Positions 31,451 through 46,722 of a stretch of DNA of 64,000 nucleotides are shown one piece after another. Each line of letters starts with the position of its first letter. The first letter of the stretch is position 1. The DNA is from Stieleria bergensis. Its GTDB lineage: Bacteria > Planctomycetota > Planctomycetia > Pirellulales > Pirellulaceae. Both the position numbers and the translations under genes were made by a program. The stretch is taken from contig CP036272.1 in NCBI GenBank assembly GCA_007745635.1, positions 6,873,566 to 6,937,565 on the forward strand, in the 5' to 3' direction. The notes below the pieces were generated by a model. The model saw nothing but the letters and a program-made list of their open reading frames with translations, was not told the origin of the DNA and searched no databases.

Positions 31451-33040
31451 ATGTTCCACCGATTCCTTTTGCCGCTTGTCGCCGGAGCATTGCTATCGAT
31501 GTCAGTGCCCGCGACGGCCGCTGATGATCTCGTTGCGCCCTTAGCTGATTCACCTCGTTATCAGCTTAGTAACTTGCGGACGGAAACTGACCGGTTCGGC
31601 AAATCGGTCATTGCCATTGACTATCGTCGCACAAAGAAAGGGCCTGGATCGGTTTCCGTGAGCGGTCGTTCCGCTAGTGGACGCACCAGCGTGTCTGCCT
31701 ATCTGTCGACAACACAGGACTCTGGAACCGTCCGACTCTCGAGTCTGTTTGGTGGTCGCGGCACGATCAACGACATCGAATTCTACTTGGTTCAAAACTA
31801 TCGGATTGATGCCAGCAAAACGGTCAAGGTTCTAGTGTCCAACCCCGTGCGACTGGGCAATCCCGGTGGTTCAACCGGCACACGAAGCCTGACTGCGGCC
31901 GAGAAAGCGCAGCATCAAGAGTTCGTTCGGATCATGAACGATGATTCGGCGCACAAACCCAACAAGGAATACAAAGTCACGATCAAGCCTCCAGAAGGTT
32001 CCGATTTCGTTAGCAACACCGTCAAGCTCACCAAGGGCACGCGACTGCAAGCTTGCTACCAAGACAGCTGGCATCCACTGACAGCCATTTCAGAGAACAG
32101 CGACGGGACCGTCAATGTACGCTGGGACAAGTATGGCCCAACCTACGACTGTGCCATGAAGCGTGGCGAACTGGTGATTGAAACCAGCCTTGTCAGCCGC
32201 CTGAGCTCACACCCGACATCACGCTTCCCGGAAACTGTCCCCAATTGGGCATCCGAATCGGCAAAAACAACCTCGGCTCCGTCAGCAGATGCCAAAGGAC
32301 GCAAGAGCTATCCCGTCTCCATTTCTGTGCCACAAGATTCAGAGTTCGTTTCGGCTGATCTCACCGTCAAAGCCGGAGTCAAACTTCAGGCCTGCTACGC
32401 CGGAAAATGGATACCGATCACAGCATTGAGCGAAAACAAAGATGGAACATTAAACGTTCGCTGGGATGAATACGGCGCGGGATTCGATTGCAGCATGCTG
32501 CGCAGCGAGCTGATCATCAAGAAAACCATGGCACAGCAACTGAAATCTAATCCAGATGCGGTCGCCGAAAGCACTCCACCGCTGCGCCGCAAAAACTATA
32601 CGGTCGCAATCCCAGTGCCGACCGATTCAGCCCTGGTCCCAGCCGATGCGGTTTTGGCACCAGGCACCAAACTGCAAGCCTGCTACGCTGGCAAATGGAA
32701 TCCCATCACCTTTCTTTCGCATGCCTCCGACGGAACACTGAACGTCCGATGGGATGACTATGGACAAGCCTACGATTGCAGCATGGTTCGCAATGAACTG
32801 ATCGTCAAGAAGTCTGTCTTAAGGACTTTGCAGAGCGGTTCGGCAGCGGGCCAGATGCGCACCTTTACCGACGCAACCGGCAAGTTCAGGGTCAAAGCCA
32901 AAGTGGTCCAGCAAACGGCCACCGAGGTGACCTTGCTAACCGAACAAGGCAAAGAGGTAACGCTGCCACTGACAAGGCTAAGCGAAGCCGATCAAGAGTT
33001 CCTCAAGTCATCGGCGACTACAGAGAACCCCTTCCAATAG
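31451..33040 (+). CDS. Exported SHD1-domain protein with three internal repeats
   Basis: 529 residues. Signal peptide FLLPLVAGALLSMSVPATAA. The middle holds three copies of a ~60-residue unit, at about 180-240, 285-360 and 380-455, each with LQACY.. W.P(I/L)T..S...DGT(L/V)NVRWD.YG...DC.M.R.EL. The C-terminus is an SHD1 domain (FTDATGKFRVKAKVVQQTAT, LTRLSEADQEFLK), a family expanded in planctomycetes. Repeat units carry two Cys each (ACY and YDC), which may form a disulfide after export. Function is unknown; it could bind peptides or surface material. Single gene, CGGAGACC precedes the ATG. Confidence 0.85.
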   Translation: MFHRFLLPLVAGALLSMSVPATAADDLVAPLADSPRYQLSNLRTETDRFGKSVIAIDYRRTKKGPGSVSVSGRSASGRTSVSAYLSTTQDSGTVRLSSLFGGRGTINDIEFYLVQNYRIDASKTVKVLVSNPVRLGNPGGSTGTRSLTAAEKAQHQEFVRIMNDDSAHKPNKEYKVTIKPPEGSDFVSNTVKLTKGTRLQACYQDSWHPLTAISENSDGTVNVRWDKYGPTYDCAMKRGELVIETSLVSRLSSHPTSRFPETVPNWASESAKTTSAPSADAKGRKSYPVSISVPQDSEFVSADLTVKAGVKLQACYAGKWIPITALSENKDGTLNVRWDEYGAGFDCSMLRSELIIKKTMAQQLKSNPDAVAESTPPLRRKNYTVAIPVPTDSALVPADAVLAPGTKLQACYAGKWNPITFLSHASDGTLNVRWDDYGQAYDCSMVRNELIVKKSVLRTLQSGSAAGQMRTFTDATGKFRVKAKVVQQTATEVTLLTEQGKEVTLPLTRLSEADQEFLKSSATTENPFQ

Positions 33041-35689: not shown

Positions 35690-35719
35690 TTGACATTTGC
35701 CACTGGCATACGCTAAATC
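35690..35719 (+). promoter_or_regulatory. Sigma-70-like promoter
   Basis: TTGACA at 35690-35695, then 17 bases, then CTAAAT at 35713-35718. This is the best vegetative promoter match I saw in the window and lies 83 bases upstream of the cysteine-rich gene pair. Confidence 0.5.
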
Positions 35720-35801
35720 ATAAAATAACATTTGTGCATGTCGGGCTACTAAACGGTGTTTCGCCCGCCAGCTTTCAAACCGCTTTTCTGGTGAACCTGC
35801 T

Positions 35802-36260
35802 TTGATTCCCAGTGTTGCTCGAGCCGCAATCACGCTGATACTCGCTGGATGGTGCGCCGTCCTGCCGGTGTTCGCGCAGCTATGCCCGTGCACGGTGGCA
35901 GGTCCGATTAGCTCGGCAAGTGCGGACATCAATCCATCGTCTGCAAGTCTGGCAACCGCCAAGAAGAGCTGTTGCGGACATTGTTCAGCTCAGCCCGCCC
36001 CTGACGCTGCGGCGATTGGCTGGGAGTCCGATGACGACCAATCAGCATCTTGTCGCTGTGACGATGTCTCACGGTTTGAGCTCTTTTTAGCCGAAGTGTC
36101 CAACACGGATCGCTCGGTTTCTGATGCCGTCGAGCCACTGTCCACTGTGGCAGCCTGGATCAGCACAGTCGAAGCCAGCGAGATGACGTTCGAAAGAGCA
36201 CCGCCGTTTGTGCTTCCGCATCTACGCAAACTTGCCTGCCTAGGAGTCTGGCGGCTCTGA
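35802..36260 (+). CDS. Small exported cysteine-rich protein, hypothetical
   Basis: 152 residues from a TTG start, the only start in frame. The N-terminus (AAITLILAGWCAVLPVFAQ) is a signal peptide. The mature part has Cys pairs: QLCPCTVAG, KKSCCGHCSAQP and SCRCDD, which could bind metal ions. The rest is low-complexity (Ser, Ala, Asp). It ends 55 bases before the repeat-rich protein, is on the same strand and probably shares its promoter, so both may serve in metal handling or in the same extracytoplasmic structure. No family recognised. Confidence 0.55.
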   Translation: MIPSVARAAITLILAGWCAVLPVFAQLCPCTVAGPISSASADINPSSASLATAKKSCCGHCSAQPAPDAAAIGWESDDDQSASCRCDDVSRFELFLAEVSNTDRSVSDAVEPLSTVAAWISTVEASEMTFERAPPFVLPHLRKLACLGVWRL

Positions 36261-36315
36261 ATCTCTCTTTGATTGTTGACTCACTAAAGTATCAAAATCA
36301 ATTCGAGAGAATTCC

Positions 36316-37206
36316 ATGTCTAAAAGTCTGTACCTATCTTTCTTTGTGTTGGCGACATTCGCGTCGTTTGTCTCCCAACCCCTCAACGCCCAAGCACCCG
36401 AGACAGAGGCTGAAATAGCCACCTGTGCCTGCTGTGGCGACCAATGCAAAAGCGATGACTGCCCCTGCGTTGGCGGCACCTGCAAATGCGATTCCAAATC
36501 AGGCGACTGCGCCTGCTCCGCCCCCGGATGCTGTTCGAAGCCCAAGACCTGTGAGAACGGCGTCTGCAAACAGAAATCCGCAGCCGGGACGGCCAAGTGC
36601 GACAAAGCCTGTTGTGCTGATTCGCTGACGTGCACCAAACCCTGTTGCGCCGAAGCCGTTTGCACCAAGCCTTGTTGCGTTGCCACGGCAGCCTGCACGA
36701 AACCGTGTTGCGCTGAAGCCGTTTGCACCAAGCCTTGTTGCGTTGCTACGGCGGCCTGCACGAAACCGTGTTGCGCCGAAGCCGTTTGCACCAAGCCTTG
36801 TTGCGTTGCCACGGCAGCCTGCACGAAACCGTGTTGCGCTGAAGCCGTTTGCACCAAGCCTTGTTGCGTTGCTACGGCGGCCTGCACGAAACCGTGTTGC
36901 GCTGAAGCCGTTTGCACCAAGCCTTGTTGCGTTGCCACGGCGGCCTGCACCAAACCGTGTTGCGCTGAAGCCGTTTGCACCAAGCCTTGTTGCGTTGCCA
37001 CGGCGGCCTGCACCAAACCGTGTTGCGCTGAAGCCGTTTGCACCAAGCCTTGTTGCGTTGCCACGGCGGCGTGCACGAAACCGTGTTGCGCCGAAGCCGT
37101 TTGCACCAAGCCTTGCTGTCAGGACGTCAAATGTGACAAGCCCTGCTGCCAAAAGAAGGTTGCAGAGAACCCACCGACGGCAACCACGAGCGTTGGCAAA
37201 AAATAG
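36316..37206 (+). CDS. Exported metallothionein-like cysteine-rich repeat protein
   Basis: 296 residues, about 68 Cys and apparently no His. Signal peptide SLYLSFFVLATFASFVSQPLNAQ. Residues ~35-105 are a non-repetitive region with Cys-X-Cys and Cys-Cys clusters (CACCGDQCKSDDCPC, GTCKCDSKSGDCACSAPGCC). Residues ~106-268 are eight tandem units of 21 residues (CTKPCCAEAV CTKPCC VATAA), six Cys per unit, ending with CDKPCC. The C-terminus is Cys-free (PPTATTSVGKK). The composition suggests soft-metal binding (Cu, Zn, Cd, Hg) or a disulfide-crosslinked wall or surface protein; it resembles no bacterial metallothionein family I can name, and the signal peptide would place it outside the cytoplasm. 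Repeats allow ORFs in other frames; only this frame has a signal peptide. Confidence 0.8.
   Translation: MSKSLYLSFFVLATFASFVSQPLNAQAPETEAEIATCACCGDQCKSDDCPCVGGTCKCDSKSGDCACSAPGCCSKPKTCENGVCKQKSAAGTAKCDKACCADSLTCTKPCCAEAVCTKPCCVATAACTKPCCAEAVCTKPCCVATAACTKPCCAEAVCTKPCCVATAACTKPCCAEAVCTKPCCVATAACTKPCCAEAVCTKPCCVATAACTKPCCAEAVCTKPCCVATAACTKPCCAEAVCTKPCCVATAACTKPCCAEAVCTKPCCQDVKCDKPCCQKKVAENPPTATTSVGKK
36631..37119 (+). repeat. Eight tandem 63-bp units inside the cysteine-rich gene
   Basis: Units start at 36631, 36694, 36757, 36820, 36883, 36946, 37009 and 37072 (the last is 48 bp). All base differences between units are silent (Thr ACC/ACG, Ala GCC/GCT/GCG/GCA, Pro CCC/CCG). Units 1-2 and 3-4 show the same alternating silent pattern, suggesting duplication of a 126-bp pair. 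Confidence 0.95.
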
Positions 37207-37377
37207 CTTCCTTCGAACTCGAAGCTGTAATCAATGGTACTGACGGAGGCCCAGGACTCCGTCAATCAGCAAACCTCGGACCTTCACAGGTTCGGGGCTT
37301 CTTTTTGCCACCGCATCCAAGATGCACTGCTCGACAAACCGCTTAGGGGTGCACGCGAGTCTGATCCGCTTGATAGC

Positions 37378-37890: not shown

Positions 37891-38316
37891 CGGGGGCCTC
37901 ACTTTCTCGCGTAGCGGTGTTTTTTACCTGATGATCACAGAGAAGCTTATTAGAGTCGATACCGCTAGACCAAATCGAGTTGGCTTAAGCAATTCCTACG
38001 TTAAGAGACAAAGCAGTCGAACTGATTTAGGTTCGTGACATCAAACGTTCTCGTCAGAAAGCTAAATCAGCGCCCGCCAAAAACAGACAAAGTTTCGGAC
38101 CGCGAGTAACAAACCGATTTGATCAGGAAAACCTGACTCAACTCAGTCTCAGAATCAGAGTGTCCGGCGAGGCACGCGAAGCGCTTGCTGACGCTAATTT
38201 GTTCGCTATCAATTGGGTGCGAACTCAGCTAAAATGAGTGGATGGATCATCACCAAAACCATCCCGCCTGTTCCCCTTCGACGCCATGCATCTCGACGAC
38301 CATTGATGGCCGGTCG
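37891..38316. other. Divergent intergenic region
   Basis: About 425 bases, AT-rich, between the 170-residue hypothetical gene and the DUF1592-type gene. It presumably holds both promoters; no RNA gene or convincing ORF is seen. Confidence 0.3.
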
Positions 38317-40779
38317 ATGCAACGACTGTGTTGGGCGGCATTCTTGTTGGTCGCGTTTCCGTTAGCTGCCAACGGCCAGGCAACAGACGAAGCACCTGCG
38401 AACAACCAACCGTCAAGCAAAGCAGGGCAGGGCGAAACTCCTGCGACTGATTTTCAAAACACCGCGAGTCAATTCCTGGGCAAGTTTTGCCTCGATTGCC
38501 ACGACTCGACCGATCCAGAGGGCGATGTCCGACTGGACAACTTGGACGTTGATCTCTCTGTCACCGAAACAGCCGACTCTTGGAACCGCATCTTCAATCA
38601 GGTTCAATTTGGTGAGATGCCGCCGGAAGATGAAACGCAACCATCGGCTGATCAACGAGCGACGTTTCTCAGGCAACTCGATCATGAACTGACTTTGCAT
38701 GGTCGCGGTTTTGAGCTGGACAAAAAGCTGCTGCTCCCACAGTTTGGCAACTATATCGACCACGGCAAACTATTCGATGGCAGCGTCACCGAAAAACCAT
38801 ACAGCCCAGCGCGTCTCTGGCGACAACGGCCAATCATCTATGACGCCATCTGGGGCAACGCTTACGGACGTGCTCCCTGGTATAGCGTCAAGATTGGTGG
38901 AACGGGAAATCATCTGATCGCCCGCGGGCCTCACAAAGGCAAGCTGATGGCAACGCGGTATTTCCAAGATCAAAAGTACGCCAATCCGTTCTTTGAATTT
39001 GTCCATCACGCTTCAGGCTTTACCGATTACGCGTCGATCGTTGCTGACCAGTCATCACTGGAAGCATTATTGGTAAACGCCGAAACGATGGCTCAGATCC
39101 TAACCGTAGGTCAAAAGGTTCGGATTGTCACTCAGGTAAAAAACAAAGGCAGTCGGACGGGAAACAACGAAGCGATGTTTGTCGGCGGCGTGACCACCAC
39201 GGCAAACGAGTACCGAGGACGGGTCCCAGTCATTTTCAACTACATCGTCAAATCCGCACAACCGGTGACGCGCGACGATTTTGACCAGGCTCTTGATGTG
39301 GCGTTCGCGTTGTTCCTCAGACGTTCGCCCAAGCAAGAGGAATACGAGCACTACTGGCGGAACGTCTTTCAAAAGAACGCCGAACTCGGCAACGAGATGG
39401 CTTTACAGGCTGTCTTGATCTATGTCACCTTAACACCCGAATTCGTTTATCGCATGGAGCTAGGTCTCGGCGAGACCGACGCTGACGGCCGCCGTTTCCT
39501 GTCACCTCAAGAGTTGGTTTACTCGCTGCATTATGCGTTGCACAACAAGCCGGCCTTTGGTGTGGATGAGATCGAAACCATCGATGTCTATACCAAACAG
39601 AGCGAAGCTCCGATCCAGCGCACCATGACCACTCCACGCCCCGCCTGGGCCGCTGGGCACAGTGCATTGGTCAAGGAGATGCTGGCCGGCAAGCTCAAGA
39701 CGCGAGACGATGTCGAACGCGTCGTGCGACAAATGCTTGACGCGCGGCAAAACGGCTGGGTCACCACTCACAACCGCACCTACCTTTCCACCACTAACCC
39801 TCGAATCCTGCAGTTCTTTCGTGAGTTCTTCGGTTACTACAAAGCCGATGAGGTCTTCAAAGACATTGACGAGTTCAAAAAACGTGATGGCTTTCAGCAG
39901 TTTGTTCAGGGCAGTGCATCCAAGTTGGCCTACGACACAGACAGCTTGATTCTGCACATACTTCAGGAAGACAAAGATGTTCTCAAACAGCTGCTAACAA
40001 CGAACAAAGTCGTCTCGGTGTATTGGAATGGCAAGAACGATGAACAGCAAGTTAAACGGGCCGGTGGCGCGGAAAAGTATCGACGCACCCATCCTGTGCA
40101 AAGCTACAACCTGGATCCGTACGAGCACGCCTACGATAAAGACAATCACAGTGATCCACAGATTCGCAAGAACGGACAGGTGTTCCGCGCTCCAGCGGAA
40201 CAACGCTGTGGGATTCTGACCCAACCCAGCTGGCTGATTGCGCATAGCGGCAACTTTGACAATGACCCTGTGCGGCGCGGGAAGTGGATTCGCGAAAAGC
40301 TGCTCGCAGGTGTGGTCATGGATCTACCGATCAATGTTGATGCTCAGATTCCTGACAACGAACATCAAACGCTGCGTGAGCGATTCCAAGTCGTGCACGA
40401 GAGTGCCTGCTGGCGTTGCCACAAGAAAATGAATCCACTCGGCATGCCATTCGAAGCATACAATCACGTCGGCAAATGGCGTGCGACCGAACAGGGCCAG
40501 CCCGTTGACGCGAGCGGCTCGATCACACTGAGCCACGACGACAGCTTACATCAAGACGTCCAAAATGTTCTCGAGCTGATGGAAGCTCTCGCTGAATCCG
40601 ACCTGGTTCGGCAAAGCTTTATCCGGCACGTTTTCCGATACTGGATGGGGCGCAATGAAATGCTCAGCGACTCCCAAACGCTGATGGCGATGGACAAAGC
40701 CTATGTGGAAAGCGGCGGCAGCTTTAAAGAGTTGCTGGTGGCATTGATGACTTCCGATTCCTTTCTCTACAGAAAATAG
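38317..40779 (+). CDS. DUF1592/DUF1588/DUF1585 planctomycete cytochrome-domain protein
   Basis: 820 residues. Signal peptide LCWAAFLLVAFPLAANGQ. A haem c motif is near the N-terminus (FCLDCHDSTDPEGDVRLDNL). The middle is DUF1592-like (FALFLRRSPKQEEYEHYWRN, TLTPEFVYRMELGLGE), then DUF1588 with RCGILTQPSWLIAHSGNFDN, RRGKWIREKLLAG and a second CxxCH in ACWRCHKKMNPLGMPFE, and DUF1585 at the end (QSFIRHVFRYWMGRNE, GSFKELLVALMTSDSFLYR). The start is set by the signal peptide; a 25-codon upstream extension is possible. Followed after 5 bases by the DUF1552 gene, its constant partner. Extracytoplasmic, substrate unknown. Confidence 0.88.
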   Translation: MQRLCWAAFLLVAFPLAANGQATDEAPANNQPSSKAGQGETPATDFQNTASQFLGKFCLDCHDSTDPEGDVRLDNLDVDLSVTETADSWNRIFNQVQFGEMPPEDETQPSADQRATFLRQLDHELTLHGRGFELDKKLLLPQFGNYIDHGKLFDGSVTEKPYSPARLWRQRPIIYDAIWGNAYGRAPWYSVKIGGTGNHLIARGPHKGKLMATRYFQDQKYANPFFEFVHHASGFTDYASIVADQSSLEALLVNAETMAQILTVGQKVRIVTQVKNKGSRTGNNEAMFVGGVTTTANEYRGRVPVIFNYIVKSAQPVTRDDFDQALDVAFALFLRRSPKQEEYEHYWRNVFQKNAELGNEMALQAVLIYVTLTPEFVYRMELGLGETDADGRRFLSPQELVYSLHYALHNKPAFGVDEIETIDVYTKQSEAPIQRTMTTPRPAWAAGHSALVKEMLAGKLKTRDDVERVVRQMLDARQNGWVTTHNRTYLSTTNPRILQFFREFFGYYKADEVFKDIDEFKKRDGFQQFVQGSASKLAYDTDSLILHILQEDKDVLKQLLTTNKVVSVYWNGKNDEQQVKRAGGAEKYRRTHPVQSYNLDPYEHAYDKDNHSDPQIRKNGQVFRAPAEQRCGILTQPSWLIAHSGNFDNDPVRRGKWIREKLLAGVVMDLPINVDAQIPDNEHQTLRERFQVVHESACWRCHKKMNPLGMPFEAYNHVGKWRATEQGQPVDASGSITLSHDDSLHQDVQNVLELMEALAESDLVRQSFIRHVFRYWMGRNEMLSDSQTLMAMDKAYVESGGSFKELLVALMTSDSFLYRK

Positions 40780-40784
40780 CCACG

Positions 40785-42137
40785 ATGAAGAACTCAAATC
40801 GTCGAAATCTCTTGAAGGGACTCAGCCTAGGAGCAGGAGCCGTGGCTCTGTCTCCGTTTGTCAGGCGGCTTGATGCTGCGGAGAATCAAGAACCACCCAA
40901 ACGCTTTGTGTTTGTGGTCAAGAGCAGTGGGCTGCAGGGAGAATACCTGAACCCAGAAGGCCTGGAGCATCGGGGTGATAAACTGGTCGACTCGACTCTG
41001 GCGGAACGCTCCCTTCCAGAAAGCCTGAAGCCGCTGGCCCCTTTTCAAGATCAACTAACGATCATTCAAGGCCTAAGCGGCAAGATGACGCGACTGGGAC
41101 ACAGCGCTCACTATGGTGCACTGGGCGGATACAAAGCTTCACCGCACACGCCGCCACTTGCAGCAACCATTGACGGCTACCTTTCGGAAACGTTTCCCTC
41201 GGTCTTCAACCATGTTGGTTTCAAGATGGGTGAAGGAAGCCAGGGAGTAACGTTCCCCGCCATCTCGGCAAAAGGCAAAGGCCAACAGCTTCCGTTTCAG
41301 CAAAACCCAGTTGCAGCCTTCGAGAACCTGTTCGGTAGCATCCTAGAAGGAGGTGATCTTAAAAAGAAGTACACGCGCACTGGCAATGTCCTAGATGCGA
41401 TGTCATCGGATATTCGCAAGCTTCAACAGAACCTGCCGAGCACCGAACAGGAAAAGCTAGGACACTACCTCAGCGGCTTTGAAGCCTTGCGCGATCGCCG
41501 CGTCAAACTGGTTTCCATGCAAAAGACACTCAAGGAGCATGCTCCGGAACTGGACGACAAATACACCTCTCGCTTTAAGACCCAGCATTTGGAAGCGCAC
41601 TTTGACATGGCGGCCTCGGCGCTTGTCACTGGCCTGACCAATGTCATCACGATTCACGCCGATGGACTGGATTCGGTCTACTCTGGAATTGGCATTGGCA
41701 ACAACGTCCACGCGATCGGTCATGGCGCTGGCTACGCGACGCTGTCGGCTCAAGATTGCCGAAATGCCATTCGTCAATTCCATGTGGAACTGATCTCCGG
41801 ACTGGCTGCCAAACTGAAGGCGATCCCCGAGGGCGATGGCACGATGCTGGACAATACACTGATTGTTTACACCAGTGATAACGCCGCCCAGCATCACTCG
41901 GTGGGAAATGACTGGCCGATGGTCGTCGTGGGCAACTTAGCAGGCCGACTGAAATCGCAAGGCAGATTCCTGGCTTATCCTCAGTACGGTCGGGCGGGAC
42001 ACAAGCACACGATTTGCAATTGGTTCACGACGCTCTGCCATCTTGCTGGCGTTCCACAGGACCTGTTTGGACAGCCTGACCTAGCGTTAGGCAAGCCGGA
42101 AAATCAATCGGGACCTTTGGCTGAGCTGCTGTCATGA
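40785..42137 (+). CDS. DUF1552 family exported protein
   Basis: 450 residues. Tat-type signal (NRRNLLKGLSLGAGAVALSP). DUF1552 blocks include RFVFVVKSSGLQGEYLNPEG, LTIIQGLSGKMTRLGHSAHY, HTPPLAATIDGYL, DNTLIVYTSDNAAQHH and GRAGHKHTICNWFTTLCHLA. The family is related to DUF1501 and always accompanies DUF1592-type cytochromes. Its stop overlaps the start of the leucine-rich-repeat gene (ATGA, 42134-42137). Confidence 0.9.
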   Translation: MKNSNRRNLLKGLSLGAGAVALSPFVRRLDAAENQEPPKRFVFVVKSSGLQGEYLNPEGLEHRGDKLVDSTLAERSLPESLKPLAPFQDQLTIIQGLSGKMTRLGHSAHYGALGGYKASPHTPPLAATIDGYLSETFPSVFNHVGFKMGEGSQGVTFPAISAKGKGQQLPFQQNPVAAFENLFGSILEGGDLKKKYTRTGNVLDAMSSDIRKLQQNLPSTEQEKLGHYLSGFEALRDRRVKLVSMQKTLKEHAPELDDKYTSRFKTQHLEAHFDMAASALVTGLTNVITIHADGLDSVYSGIGIGNNVHAIGHGAGYATLSAQDCRNAIRQFHVELISGLAAKLKAIPEGDGTMLDNTLIVYTSDNAAQHHSVGNDWPMVVVGNLAGRLKSQGRFLAYPQYGRAGHKHTICNWFTTLCHLAGVPQDLFGQPDLALGKPENQSGPLAELLS

Positions 42138-43651
42138 TCGTCAACTCACTTTGCCGGACAATCGCTCTCTTCTTGGTCGCTGGATTGGGTCTGACCGAAT
42201 GGGGCATCACAGGGGTTTCTGCGCAGCAATCTACGGACATTGCCAGCCAAACCTCAATGACCACCGCCAAAGCTCGAGCCATTCTTGCCGAGCGAGGCAA
42301 CGAGCTTTCGGACGACGACCTTGCTCGAATTTGCCAAGCGTCCGATCTGGTTCAGCTGGATTTGACGGACTGTCATCAGATCACCGATCAAGGGCTGCTG
42401 CACGTCGCTGAAGTGACGGCGCTGGAATCCTTAAGCCTGCAGAACTGTCATCGCATCAGCCTGAAGGGCATTCAAGCCATCTGTGGACTGCCAAAACTAA
42501 CCACTCTGAACCTCAGCAAGACTCGTTTACCTTTAACGGATGTCTATCGCGAACTAAAGCAACTGCCCGCCCTGACGCGACTGGAAGTAAGAGACATTCG
42601 CGGATTCAAAAGTGAAGGGCTGCAGGAGCTCACTGAGCTGACCTACTTGGATCTCTCCAATGCGAACGGTGGTATCACTGACAATGATCTCAAACCACTT
42701 GGATCATTAACCCAGCTGACCTCTCTGAATCTAAACGGGAGCCGCAATTGGGGCGCGAATAAGACATTAACAAATGCCGGTCTGAAACATCTTGAGTCGC
42801 TCACGGAGTTAGAGTTCCTGGGACTGTTTGGTCACTTTCAACTGACCGCTGAAGGCTACAACCCACTGTTTGCCAAGCTTGAAAAGCTGACGACATTGGA
42901 GATGGGATTCAACTGGCCGCTTAAAGGAACCGAGATCGCGCTTCCGCCAACGCTGGTTCATCTTGACATGATGGAGTCGTTCCAGATGACTGATGCGGGG
43001 GTCACCCAATTGAAAGAAACGCATCGCCTGAAGACGCTCAACCTATTTTACTGTTTGGAACTGACCAACAAGAGCCTGCAGCGTTTGCGTGACATGCCGA
43101 ATCTGGAATGGCTTCATCTCGGCTGCATCGCGGCACTGACGGATGAAGGCCTTGTCGAGCTGCAACATTGCCCGCGGCTGACTTATCTGAACCTTAGTGA
43201 CAATGATCATTTCACTGATGCTGGGCTCGCGAACTTAGCCGGACTTCACTTGCTGAAAGAATTGCATCTCTGGAGTCTTCCCAATCTTGAAGGCAGTGGG
43301 CTGGCAGTGCTTCAGGAGATGCCAGAGCTGAGAACGCTAAACCTTGCTGATTGCGATCATCTAACCGACACCGCGTTGAAGCATGCCGGCCAGCGAACCA
43401 ACCTAGAAGAACTCTACCTTGATCATTGCACGCAGATCACCGACACTGGGCTTGCGGAGCTATCTCGACTGTCCAAGCTGAGAGAACTTACCTTGACGGG
43501 CTGCCTAAGCTTGACCGACGCTTCACTGGACACGCTTAAGCAACTTGAATCGCTGGAATATCTGGTTCTGGATAGTTGTCCTGGGCTGACCGCCAGCCGG
43601 ATCGAGCAACTTAAGCTCGCGTTGCCCAACTGTGCAATCATCTTCGATTGA
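42134..43651 (+). CDS. Exported leucine-rich-repeat protein
   Basis: 505 residues. Signal peptide RTIALFLVAGLGLTEWGITGVSA. About 16 LRRs of the cysteine-containing (AMN1/F-box-like) type fill the rest: LVQLDLTDCHQITDQGLLHV, LTYLNLSDNDHFTDAGLANL, LEELYLDHCTQITDTGLAEL. LRRs bind proteins or other ligands. Translational coupling to the DUF1552 gene suggests it serves as the recognition or scaffold partner of that cytochrome module (inference). Confidence 0.85.
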   Translation: MIVNSLCRTIALFLVAGLGLTEWGITGVSAQQSTDIASQTSMTTAKARAILAERGNELSDDDLARICQASDLVQLDLTDCHQITDQGLLHVAEVTALESLSLQNCHRISLKGIQAICGLPKLTTLNLSKTRLPLTDVYRELKQLPALTRLEVRDIRGFKSEGLQELTELTYLDLSNANGGITDNDLKPLGSLTQLTSLNLNGSRNWGANKTLTNAGLKHLESLTELEFLGLFGHFQLTAEGYNPLFAKLEKLTTLEMGFNWPLKGTEIALPPTLVHLDMMESFQMTDAGVTQLKETHRLKTLNLFYCLELTNKSLQRLRDMPNLEWLHLGCIAALTDEGLVELQHCPRLTYLNLSDNDHFTDAGLANLAGLHLLKELHLWSLPNLEGSGLAVLQEMPELRTLNLADCDHLTDTALKHAGQRTNLEELYLDHCTQITDTGLAELSRLSKLRELTLTGCLSLTDASLDTLKQLESLEYLVLDSCPGLTASRIEQLKLALPNCAIIFD

Positions 43652-43727: not shown

Positions 43728-44429
43728 GTGCAGAGCCGGATTCTTGAGCCAGAATTAATGGACAACCCGAGTCTCGACCAGCGTGAACATTTTCACGCGC
43801 TCGATGGACTGCAACGGCTTAATCGCTGGACGAAGCTGATCGATTTGGTATGGCGTCCAATTGAGCAAATGGCCCGGGAAAATCCTGCCTCCTCCTTGCG
43901 GATTCTAGACATCGCTACCGGCAGCGCTGATGTGCCGATTCAACTGGCTCAAAGAGCTGAGCGACGGGGAATTAGGCTGGAAGTCGAAGCGAGCGACATC
44001 AGCCCGCAGGCTATACAATTTGCAGAGGACAACAGCCAGAAGAGTAAAGTCTCTATCAAGTTACATCATCTTGATGTGTTGTCTGAACCGATCCCTGACG
44101 GGTATGACATGATTATGTGCGCGACTTTCCTGCACCACTTAACCACCGAACAAGCCGAGATCGTACTTGCCAAAATGATCGAGGCTGCCACGCAGAAAAT
44201 CGTTGTCGTCGATTTGATTCGCAGCCGATTCAACTGGCTACAGGTCTGCATTGCGACGCGTTTGCTTTCTCGATCACCGGTGGTTCATTTTGATGGGCCA
44301 CAGTCGATTCGCGCTTCCTTCACGATCAGCGAAATCGAGTCGATTGCAGCCAACCTGCCACTCCAAACTTATCAACTAACAAACCACTGGCCCTGCCGAT
44401 TCATGCTGGTTGGAACCTGTCATGACTGA
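43728..44429 (+). CDS. Class I SAM-dependent methyltransferase
   Basis: 233 residues from a GTG start; AGGGG is 10 bases upstream. Motif I is LRILDIATGSADVPIQLAQR, then EASDISPQAIQFAEDNSQ and MCATFLHHLTTEQAEIVLAK, giving a typical Rossmann methyltransferase. It overlaps the FAD oxidoreductase and faces a type III polyketide synthase, so it likely methylates the polyketide product (resorcinol, pyrone or quinone). Confidence 0.85.
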   Translation: MQSRILEPELMDNPSLDQREHFHALDGLQRLNRWTKLIDLVWRPIEQMARENPASSLRILDIATGSADVPIQLAQRAERRGIRLEVEASDISPQAIQFAEDNSQKSKVSIKLHHLDVLSEPIPDGYDMIMCATFLHHLTTEQAEIVLAKMIEAATQKIVVVDLIRSRFNWLQVCIATRLLSRSPVVHFDGPQSIRASFTISEIESIAANLPLQTYQLTNHWPCRFMLVGTCHD

Positions 44430-45603
44430 TTCAGTTCTCCAGGCGACCCTCAACGTCACCGAGGCATCTCAGCGAGACTGGGATGTGCTTGTGATTGGTG
44501 CCGGTCCATCCGGAGCCATCGCGGCGAGGCAATGCGCTCAAGGCGGCGGCAAAGTCTTATTGGTCAATGATCAGAAACTGCCTCGCGACAAGGTCTGTGG
44601 TTGCTGTCTAAATGGCGCAGCCTTGGAGGCGTTGAATCGGATTGGGCTGAACAAATTGGTCTCTGATTGCCATGCTCCAATACTCGAGAATTTCGTTCTC
44701 GCCAGCGGTCAACAACAAGTCGCTCTACCGCTAGGTGCCGGAGTCTCGCTGTCACGACAGCGACTTGATTTGGAACTAACACAGGCAGCGATTGACGCCG
44801 GGGCGCAGTTTTTGGATGAAACGAGAGCCACCCTGCATGCGAGCGAAAAACAGCATTGCTCGGTCATGCTAAATCATTCGCAATCGGAATACGCCACCCG
44901 CGCCAGGATTACCATCATCGCCAGTGGATTGGGACGGCGTGTGTTCTCTAACCGACTCGCCGATGAACGCCGAACCAATCGAAACTCCAGGATCGGAGCT
45001 GGCGCGGTCCTTTCGGAGGTTCGTTCTGATTTCAAGCCGAAGACCATTTACATGGCTTGCCACCGAAGCGGCTATGTCGGTTGTGTGCGTCTAGAGGACG
45101 GGCGTCTTGACCTGGCAGCTGCACTGGATGCAAACGCTGTCAAGCAGGCCGGCGGCATCGGTCCATTGGCCAGCATCATCACCAACTCTGCGGGACTTCC
45201 TGCGTCTGATGCTGTGGCCGCAGCAAACTGGCGCGGCACTGCCAAACTCACCCAGTCCAGAGCGACGGTTTACGGGGATCGCCTTTTCGTTGTCGGTGAT
45301 GCAGCTGGATACGTTGAACCGTTTACCGGCGAAGGCATGGCTTGGGCAATCGCGTCGGGAATTGCTGTGGCACCACTTGCACTTCAATCACTCAAAGTAG
45401 GAACCACGGAGACCGGTCCAACTTGGGCGAAGTCCAGAACACGGCTGCTTGGGGGAAGAATGTGGAAGTGTCGTCTGATCAGTCAATTACTACGACGGCC
45501 AAAGCTCGTAAAAGCCGCTGCCTGGGGATTGACTCATGCGCCCGGTCTTTCGCGTCCCTTTATTAGGTCTCTGAACCGCCCCTTTCCAGAACTTCGCTCC
45601 TAG
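44422..45603 (+). CDS. FAD-dependent oxidoreductase (geranylgeranyl-reductase/hydroxylase-like)
   Basis: 393 residues. N-terminal FAD motif VLVIGAGPSGAIAARQCAQG, the conserved PRDKVCGCCLNGAALEAL characteristic of this reductase/hydroxylase family, and FVVGDAAGYVEPFTGEGMAW as the second FAD motif. The start overlaps the methyltransferase stop by 8 bases. In Streptomyces srs-type loci a type III PKS, a methyltransferase and a flavoprotein hydroxylase jointly make phenolic lipids or quinones; a similar role is inferred here. Confidence 0.85.
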   Translation: MTDSVLQATLNVTEASQRDWDVLVIGAGPSGAIAARQCAQGGGKVLLVNDQKLPRDKVCGCCLNGAALEALNRIGLNKLVSDCHAPILENFVLASGQQQVALPLGAGVSLSRQRLDLELTQAAIDAGAQFLDETRATLHASEKQHCSVMLNHSQSEYATRARITIIASGLGRRVFSNRLADERRTNRNSRIGAGAVLSEVRSDFKPKTIYMACHRSGYVGCVRLEDGRLDLAAALDANAVKQAGGIGPLASIITNSAGLPASDAVAAANWRGTAKLTQSRATVYGDRLFVVGDAAGYVEPFTGEGMAWAIASGIAVAPLALQSLKVGTTETGPTWAKSRTRLLGGRMWKCRLISQLLRRPKLVKAAAWGLTHAPGLSRPFIRSLNRPFPELRS

Positions 45604-45642
45604 CTCAGCGATGAAAGCGTTTAGCAAGGCTTCGCTGGAGTG

Positions 45643-46722
45643 CTAATCCAGCAGCGCTGCTTCGATCATCAACCCGGGACCAAAGGCTAACGCAAGACAT
45701 GGTTTCGGCCTCGACAATGCTGCCAAGCGTTGGAGGATAAACAAGACTGTTGGAGAAGACATATTTCCGTATTCGCGGAGCACATCCCGAGAAATCTCCA
45801 GTGCCTCCGCGGGCAGTTCCAGCGATCGTTCAACAGCTGTCAAAATGCGTGGACCACCGGGGTGAACGGCCCAAGACCCAATGTCGTTAAGTGCCAGGCC
45901 ATTGCTCTCAAGCCACCGGGCCAACCAGGGACGAAGGTGCTGCTTGATTGCATCGGGAACTAAACTAGAAAGCGACATCTCAAAACCGTGATTGCCTATC
46001 TGCCACGACATCATCTCGGTTGAATCAGGTGCAAGGTAAGAGCCGGTCGCCTTGATCACGTAAGGTAATTCTCCCGTGCCACTCGGCCGACCACTTACAA
46101 ACGCCGCAGATCCATCTGCGAATAATGCGTTACCCAACATCAGTTTTTCATCCCACTGCGTGCGATAATGCAAGCTGCAGAGTTCCGTTGCGCAGAGCAG
46201 GGTTTTACTTGATGGATCGGCGTTTCCAAGAGCAGCTGCGACACGCATCCCATTGATTGCCGCATGACAGCCCATAAAACCAATTTGCATCCGCTGGACA
46301 TCGCGACGTAAATTGAGTGCTTTGATTAACTGCACATCAAACCCGGGTGCATCAAAACCTGTACAAGAAACCGTGATGAGATGAGTGATAGCATCCGCTG
46401 AGACGTTAGCGCTTTCGAGCGCTTTGTGCGCAGCACCAATTGATAGCGGACCGACGTGCTCGGCATACAACGCCATCCTCTGCTGGGTGCTTAAACCCAT
46501 TGAAGTGCCGGGCTCTGAATCCTCTTCAACCCAATCGTAAGCTGCTTTGTAGGGAATGCAGGTGTAACGATTGCTCACCTGAGAGCGTTTGAGCATCGCC
46601 TTCAGCAAACGCTTTTTCCGTTCATCGCCACAGAGCAAATCAGCGGACATTGCCGCCGCCTCTTCTTGGCTCATCTGATTGACGGGCACCTCTGTGCCGA
46701 ATCCGAGAATACAAGGGTTCAA
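45643..46722 (-). CDS. Type III polyketide synthase (chalcone/stilbene synthase family)
   Basis: 359 residues, full length. The catalytic triad is present: Cys120 (TVSCTGFDAPGFDVQ), His287 (SWAVHPGGPRIL) and Asn320 (EYGNMSSPTVLFI). The loop QIGFMGCHAAINGMRVA and the C-terminal GPGLMIEAALLD (usual GFGPG) are family features. It condenses a starter CoA with malonyl-CoA units to give pyrones or (alkyl)resorcinols. It converges with the methyltransferase/oxidoreductase pair with a 39-base gap. Confidence 0.92.
   Translation of the reverse strand: MNPCILGFGTEVPVNQMSQEEAAAMSADLLCGDERKKRLLKAMLKRSQVSNRYTCIPYKAAYDWVEEDSEPGTSMGLSTQQRMALYAEHVGPLSIGAAHKALESANVSADAITHLITVSCTGFDAPGFDVQLIKALNLRRDVQRMQIGFMGCHAAINGMRVAAALGNADPSSKTLLCATELCSLHYRTQWDEKLMLGNALFADGSAAFVSGRPSGTGELPYVIKATGSYLAPDSTEMMSWQIGNHGFEMSLSSLVPDAIKQHLRPWLARWLESNGLALNDIGSWAVHPGGPRILTAVERSLELPAEALEISRDVLREYGNMSSPTVLFILQRLAALSRPKPCLALAFGPGLMIEAALLD

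Follow-up and report, generated by a model that had tools for sequence, protein, structure and literature searches.

A gene pair of Stieleria bergensis joining an exported-looking, repeat-expanded metallothionein-like protein to a candidate nascent-chain metal sensor

We present here a gene pair of the planctomycete Stieleria bergensis that may form a metal-response unit, in which an exported metal trap, most likely for Cu(I), would be gated by a nascent exported sensor. The trap would be the product of a cysteine-rich, metallothionein-like gene (gene 2), and the sensor that of the short gene upstream (ORF1). We put the probability of this reading at about 45%. It builds on features computed directly from the sequences, namely, the conserved pair, the Cys motifs, selection on the C-terminus of ORF1, a predicted mRNA stem-loop, and synonymous-only variation among the repeats of gene 2. 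Both genes lie in the window, by which we mean the whole 64,000-nucleotide stretch analyzed (contig CP036272.1, positions 6,873,566 to 6,937,565, forward strand); the features of the unit are listed in Table 1. The window's genome is called G000, and family, order, and phylum denote the groups assigned to it.

Table 1. Features of the ORF1-gene 2 unit in window coordinates
Feature	Position	Strand	Details
Candidate sigma-70-like promoter	35690..35726	+	TTGACA-18-TAAATC or overlapping TTGCCA-18-TAAAAT; consensus match only
ORF1	35802..36260	+	152 aa, likely TTG start, signal-like N-terminus, Cys motifs, C-terminal segment RAPPFVLPHLRKLACLGVWRL
RAPP codons in ORF1	36195..36206	+	Residues 132-135; 45 residues beyond the last Cys of CRC
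Predicted mRNA stem-loop	36259..36314	+	Anti-SD CUCUC (36263-36267) pairs with SD GAGAG (36305-36309)
Gene 2, exported-looking Cys-rich metallothionein-like protein	36316..37206	+	296 aa, 68 Cys, ATG start
N-terminal Cys module of gene 2	36418..36534	+	Residues 35-73, CxCC..C...DCxCx4CxCD..GxCxC
Tandem array in gene 2	36631..37115	+	63-bp unit, 7.7 copies, encodes CTKPCCAEAVCTKPCCVATAA
Terminator-like hairpin, then CTTCTTTTTG	37274..37297	+	Possible 3' end of the unit

Gene 2 had been described in a sequence-only reading as encoding an exported, metallothionein-like protein of 296 residues with 68 Cys, and the frame and both counts were confirmed. All 68 Cys follow residue 26 and make up 25% of the 270 residues there, a stretch that lacks Phe, Trp, Tyr, His, Met, and Arg. 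Metallothioneins are recognized by a Cys content of at least about 20% and few or no aromatic residues, with the absence of His, Met, and aromatics as the classical signature, and the composition of gene 2 falls within these bounds. The N-terminus is hydrophobic and signal-peptide-like, ending in LNAQA (AQA at residues 25 to 27, read by eye). The signal-like start and the Cys content thus back an exported, metallothionein-like product at the level of sequence. The Cys-X-Cys module reported near the N-terminus is present, as are the CTKPCC clusters, of which 16 were counted, preceded by CDKACC and followed by CDKPCC. The tandem array (Tandem Repeats Finder, period 63, 7.7 copies, 96% match) consists of 21-residue units with six Cys each and Pro every 10 to 11 residues. 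Of the eight repeats initially claimed, seven are exact units of CTKPCCAEAVCTKPCCVATAA, beginning at residue 106, and the eighth is partial, with its first 16 residues kept. We propose that recent tandem duplication of this six-Cys unit has given the protein a higher capacity.

The frame of gene 2, taken from stop to stop, is 22% Cys, and the runner-up among all such frames of the window that span 60 codons or more is 12% Cys; this richness is far beyond chance. Lack of translation had been named as a possible undoing of the earlier reading. Among units 1 to 7, all six variable columns are third positions, and the pairwise differences comprise 54 synonymous and 0 nonsynonymous changes; the frame is therefore translated, with conservation of its amino acid sequence. 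Other long ORFs overlap the array (36240-37109 and 36499-37152 on the minus strand and 36680-37243 on the plus strand), and the amino acids of their repeats vary; they are by-products, because the repeat period is a multiple of three. Gene 2 is present in one copy in its genome (7.1 Mb, one contig). No metallothionein model in Pfam or NCBIfam matched the whole protein or the module, and none in Pfam matched the repeat; sequence searches of the PDB gave no significant match (best E values, 0.53 and 0.15).

The earlier reading treated gene 2 as standing alone. It instead follows ORF1 in a conserved gene pair, found in three genera (G000, G126, and G142) with gaps of 55, 54, and 87 nt, respectively. 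ORF1 homologues were detected by single-sequence search in G126 (E value, 3.8e-32) and G142 (1.5e-4). Gene 2 of G126 encodes MSKLLYLTSFALISL...CVKPCCADTVACTKPCC, with the contig ending in apparently the same kind of repeat. Gene 2 of G142 encodes 146 aa with a signal-like start and 27 Cys, an odd number, and beyond the signal it lacks Phe, Trp, Tyr, His, and Met. It contains two module copies that align with residues 35 to 73 of the window protein at 42 and 50% identity (alignment A1). The G142-type module and the G126-type repeat both occur in the window protein, which therefore combines them. Phe, Trp, Tyr, His, and Met are thus absent beyond the signal from both the G000 and the G142 protein despite their different Cys layouts, which fits a metal-thiolate protein and strengthens the claim of metallothionein-like composition.

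The ORF1 profile matched 12 of 396 genomes of the order at an E value of 0.01. Three matches are full length (1.8e-62 or better), these being the profile's own rows, and the remaining nine are partial; the pair was not found at the partial loci L044, L045, L046, L048, and L050 (L047, L049, L051, and L052 were left out). As a single sequence, ORF1 matched 11 of 149 family genomes at 0.01, at full length in G000, G126, and G142. A sample of the phylum gave 2 matches in 392 genomes at 0.001, the window's own and a partial one in G547 (L053). The full pair was accordingly counted in 3 of 396 genomes of the order and in 1 of 392 of the phylum sample, the window's own, in searches that rest on the ORF1 profile and that a Cys gene lacking ORF1 could escape. 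Among congeners, the profile matched G126 and G142 only in themselves (1 of 22 and 1 of 15 genomes, respectively), and at least eight congeners of the window's genome, among the misses listed, had no match. Its scattered presence in three genera suggests that the pair was transferred or repeatedly lost.

Searches with gene 2 itself reached less far. The whole protein matched only the window's own genome among 60, with no match in 13 congeners, a search of low sensitivity, since relatives are masked by the repeats and the composition. The N-terminal part, put forward earlier as a handle on relatives, did yield one: its 87 residues matched 5 of 149 family genomes at an E value of 0.01, including the window's own, and the match in G126 is genuine. 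The same query missed G142, although the gene is present there, and its negatives therefore carry little weight. The match in G011 (L015) runs out of frame through a different gene, and G144 and G032 gave weak matches, with no Cys-rich exported gene seen. A profile of the module (A1) matched 4 of the 396 genomes of the order at 0.01. Its strong matches, in G000 (5.6e-12) and G142 (8.2e-15 and 1.1e-13) only, are the rows that build the profile and are expected by construction; G216 and G262 lie near the limit, and no Cys-rich gene of this type stood out at their loci. A scan of viral contigs yielded no relative among its 77 pattern matches. The scan of GTDB species genomes, which uses short peptide patterns and reaches close relatives only, gave one further protein with similar hexamers, from a Marinimicrobia contig (L020; JABHKE010000100.1, 1908-2459). 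Like gene 2, it has a signal-like start and Cys-rich repeats (nine of the CGSDCTKP(D/C)C type, 31 Cys), but its unit is 16 residues long and no ORF of at least 60 aa lies between it and the unrelated preceding gene; we tentatively take the likeness to be convergent.

Elsewhere in the window, positions 31451 to 33040 encode an exported-looking protein with three LQACYxxxWxPIT...VRWDxYGxxxDC-type repeats and a C-terminal SHD1 domain. At 38242 to 43651, a gene for a planctomycete cytochrome (PSCyt) is paired with a DUF1552 gene, and a leucine-rich repeat protein is encoded next. This region may be accessory, since a search of 13 congeners at 1e-100 gave no match to the PSCyt gene (38242-40779). 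Positions 43728 to 46722 contain a type III polyketide synthase gene of the chalcone/stilbene synthase family on the minus strand and, adjacent to it, genes for a methyltransferase and an FAD-dependent oxidoreductase on the plus strand; the region is possibly a small polyketide cluster.

ORF1 contains the Cys motifs CxC (residues 28 and 30), KxCCxHC (55 to 61), and CxC (84 and 86). All three, with seven conserved Cys, are common to the three copies (alignment A2), each of which also has a hydrophobic N-terminus by inspection of the alignment, the start codon being uncertain. From the last CxC to the end of the protein there are 66, 66, and 68 residues in G000, G126, and G142, respectively. The aligned C-terminal segment retains P, PH, L, LG, and W. 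In a comparison of G000 with G126, dN/dS is lowest in the final 22 codons (0.13), where 16 of 22 residues are identical. The corresponding values are 0.34 for residues 1 to 27, 0.24 for residues 28 to 61 (10/34 identical), saturated for residues 62 to 90 (8/29), and 0.70 for residues 91 to 130 (10/40). The C-terminal 22 residues are thus under stronger selection than the preceding 40. The RAPP motif ends 17 residues ahead of the C-terminus and is not conserved; TPPP stands at its position in G126, and RHPP, shifted, in G142.

Promoter-like sequences precede ORF1 in the other two genomes as well, TTGTCA-18-TATGAT with a similar spacer (CTGGCrTrCG) in G126 and TTGACC-17-TAGCAT in G142, both by consensus match only. 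Of the two terminator-like sites in the scanned stretch (shuffle mean, 3.4), the one after gene 2 is supported only by its position.

Folds of the intergenic mRNA predict that the Shine-Dalgarno (SD) sequence of gene 2 is paired with an anti-SD located at stop+3 to stop+8 of ORF1 in all three genomes. The pairs, which were taken from separate folds of each genome and not from the gap alignment (A3), are CUCUC/GAGAG at stop+3 to +7 in G000, CUCCC/GGGAG at stop+4 to +8 in G126, and CUCC/GGAG with an additional GUGUGU/ACACAC helix in G142. The pair at ATG-10 is changed on both sides, A-U in G000 and G-C in G126. The probability that the SD pairs with the 15 nt after the ORF1 stop is 0.998, 0.998, and 0.394 in G000, G126, and G142, respectively, values reached by 17, 12, and 2 of 1,000 shuffles; the SD is also poorly accessible, though this is less exceptional, with accessibility as low in 68, 56, and 352 of 1,000 shuffles. 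The z-scores of the folds are -2.35, -0.92, and -3.05 for longer pieces and, for shorter pieces, -1.88 in G000 and -2.03 in G126. The three loci are related and do not amount to three independent trials. Co-directional gaps between neighboring genes gave little guidance as a control: of 15, 4 have a recognizable SD, and the pairing probabilities in these are 0.998 (the G000 pair), 0.394 (the G142 pair), and 0.0 in the two others.

Gene 2 may be under translational control by ORF1; plain translational coupling without sensing would account for the stem too. ORF1 would then be a second exported metal-binding protein, such as a chaperone or partner, and gene 2 a metal trap whose translation is coupled through the stem, with no sensing by the nascent chain. 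The seven conserved Cys of ORF1 suit such a protein, the stem and the short gaps also look like simple coupling, and RAPP is not conserved. The strongest constraint on ORF1, however, falls on its last 22 codons and not on the Cys region, and the location of the anti-SD at the stop codon recurs. We regard this explanation as unlikely, though it is to be taken seriously.

A nascent-chain sensor of this layout has a precedent in CutF of Rhodobacter capsulatus, the first gene of cutFOG, which has been studied experimentally and is exported, with a Cu motif, a Pro-rich C-terminus, and a stem that hides the SD of cutO (PMC9973294). Copper-dependent slowing has been proposed to open that stem, although a stall at the C-terminus was described there as not directly demonstrable (PMC9973294). 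ORF1 is likewise a small, exported-looking first gene with a Cys motif and a conserved, Pro-containing C-terminus, followed by a short gap and an SD-hiding stem; a stem-loop over the SD of the next gene is predicted in all three genomes, more weakly in G142. CutF has a Sec signal; the N-terminus of ORF1 is hydrophobic in all three copies, with the uncertain start noted above. The two differ in the Cys motifs, which are of the CxC and CCxHC kind in ORF1, and in the second gene, a multicopper oxidase for CutF and an exported-looking thiol-rich protein for ORF1. ORF1 falls narrowly outside the filters used for CutF-like proteins (PP within 15 residues of the C-terminus and a length of at most 150; PMC9973294), with PP ending 17 residues from the end and 152 aa counted from TTG.

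A second precedent is CruR of Bordetella pertussis, a DUF2946 protein in which CXXC and RAPP are separated by 45 residues and which is reported to act through Rho, with copper lowering expression (PMC9426467); the RAPP of CruR causes ribosome arrest in vitro (PMC12992588). The spacing from CXXC to RAPP in CruR equals that from CRC to RAPP in ORF1, but RAPP lies three residues from the C-terminus in CruR and 17 in ORF1, and ORF1 has CXC in place of CXXC. Membership of ORF1 in DUF2946, expected from RAPP and its spacing, was not supported, with no match of any of the three copies to PF11162 up to an E value of 10, an hhalign probability of 2.5%, and RAPP not conserved. The hhalign comparison, against 27 DUF2946 proteins of the same family, covered 8 columns; its score of 19.0 exceeded all 20 column-shuffled controls (best, 15.5). 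These 27 are from the 30 loci L054 to L083, without L076, L080, and L081, where stops interrupt the matched frame. Their CXXC-R[AG]PP spacing is 43 to 46 residues, with 2 to 8 residues after the motif, figures conditioned on the choice of frames for R[AG]PP and CxxC.

DUF2946 genes themselves occur in 43 of 149 family genomes at an E value of 0.01, 17 over the cut-off; G000 is not among them, with no PF11162 match at 0.01. Five of the 27 loci have a type IV pilin-like GFTLxE start within 700 nt downstream, and L071 and L073 have a close variant. Control of pseudopilin genes by arrest at DUF2946 leaders is possible.

We infer export of both products, binding of metal, the identity of the metal, stalling, and the sign of the regulation, in the following scheme. 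The gene 2 protein would bind soft metal ions outside the cytoplasm through Cys-thiolate clusters. When no ribosome occupies the end of ORF1, the mRNA stem would mask the SD of gene 2. Metal bound to the Cys motifs of ORF1 as the chain emerges would slow export or translation near the C-terminus, and a ribosome held at the ORF1 stop would cover the anti-SD, so that the SD is freed and gene 2 is translated. An anti-SD at stop+3 to +8 would lie under a ribosome whose A site is at the stop codon. A chain of 66 to 68 residues is about the length from the peptidyl-transferase center through the tunnel and translocon, so the last CxC, at that distance from the end, would emerge on the outside when the ribosome arrives at the stop. 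Since the RAPP codons end 53 nt 5' of the stem, a stall at RAPP would not open it; an arrest that does so is expected in the conserved final codons, or RAPP may act otherwise, for example, in transcription termination, as has been proposed for CruR. We tentatively propose that a nascent-chain metal sensor with no detectable DUF2946 kinship would, through ribosome arrest, switch on translation of an exported, repeat-expanded metallothionein that serves as an extracytoplasmic metal sponge.

Cu(I) seems the most likely metal, given the CutF and CruR precedents, the all-thiol chemistry, and the COX3 gene before the G142 pair. That gene, which encodes a COX3 family protein and directly precedes ORF1, is a weak hint of copper; Zn, Cd, Ag, or Hg instead is possible. 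No recognized metal-handling gene was found among the 14 neighboring window ORFs scanned with Pfam.

Fungal and mollusc metallothioneins for copper or cadmium have gained capacity by tandem duplication of Cys modules. Gene 2 differs from these repeat-expanded eukaryotic proteins in being bacterial and in having a signal peptide-like start and other Cys spacing. Known bacterial metallothioneins such as SmtA/BmtA and MymT have been described as small and are treated under the cytosolic copper pool (PMC7558416). Gene 2 shares with them a very high Cys content and presumed metal-thiolate clusters and differs in its 296 aa, signal-like start, repeat array, and lack of a family-model match. Csp1, a copper store, has a Tat signal and folds into a rigid four-helix bundle (PMC7558416). 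Both Csp1 and gene 2 are Cys rich and exported or exported-looking, but the N-terminus of gene 2 lacks twin Arg, and helices of the Csp1 type are unlikely for a repeat with Pro every 10 to 11 residues.

Gene 2 might alternatively be, as the earlier reading also suggested, a disulfide-crosslinked surface or wall protein, with a composition like that of hair keratin-associated proteins, and ORF1 an aid to its secretion or a means of setting its dosage. Exported proteins meet an oxidizing environment, the sole Pfam resemblance of the repeat is to high-sulfur keratin (E value, 0.91, not significant), and there is an extensin-like match (1.2e-4, but 22 bits versus a cut-off of 105). Planctomycete walls are said to be cystine rich. 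Against this, the G142 protein has an odd number of Cys and metallothionein-like modules in place of the CTKPCC array, and the gene upstream carries Cys motifs of the metal type. A core wall component is unlikely because the gene is single copy and the pair rare (3/396). We consider a structural role improbable. Very improbable is an extracellular redox buffer or oxidant scavenger, its thiols consumed by oxidants and ORF1 sensing thiol oxidation, for although the Cys motifs could sense either metal or oxidation, the pair has no partner reductase and gene 2, lacking His, Met, and aromatics beyond its signal, bears the classical metallothionein signature. In favor of this reading, a thioredoxin-domain gene is reported to be preceded by an arrest-type leader that has a conserved Cys pair (PMC12992588).

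Leaders of the CutF and CruR type have been described ahead of oxidases, transporters, and chaperones (PMC9973294, PMC9426467, PMC12992588). Among the matches listed, in titles and the starts of abstracts of open-licence texts, there was no description of an exported repeat metallothionein with such a leader. The metallothionein-like reading of gene 2 is strengthened by its context, including an upstream gene that resembles a metal sensor; the leader gene and the predicted stem are additions to it. If the metal-response unit is real, it joins an exported repeat metallothionein to a leader of CutF layout and unrelated sequence, which would suggest that such control logic arose more than once, and the capacity of protein thiols to hold metal outside the cytoplasm would become directly testable.
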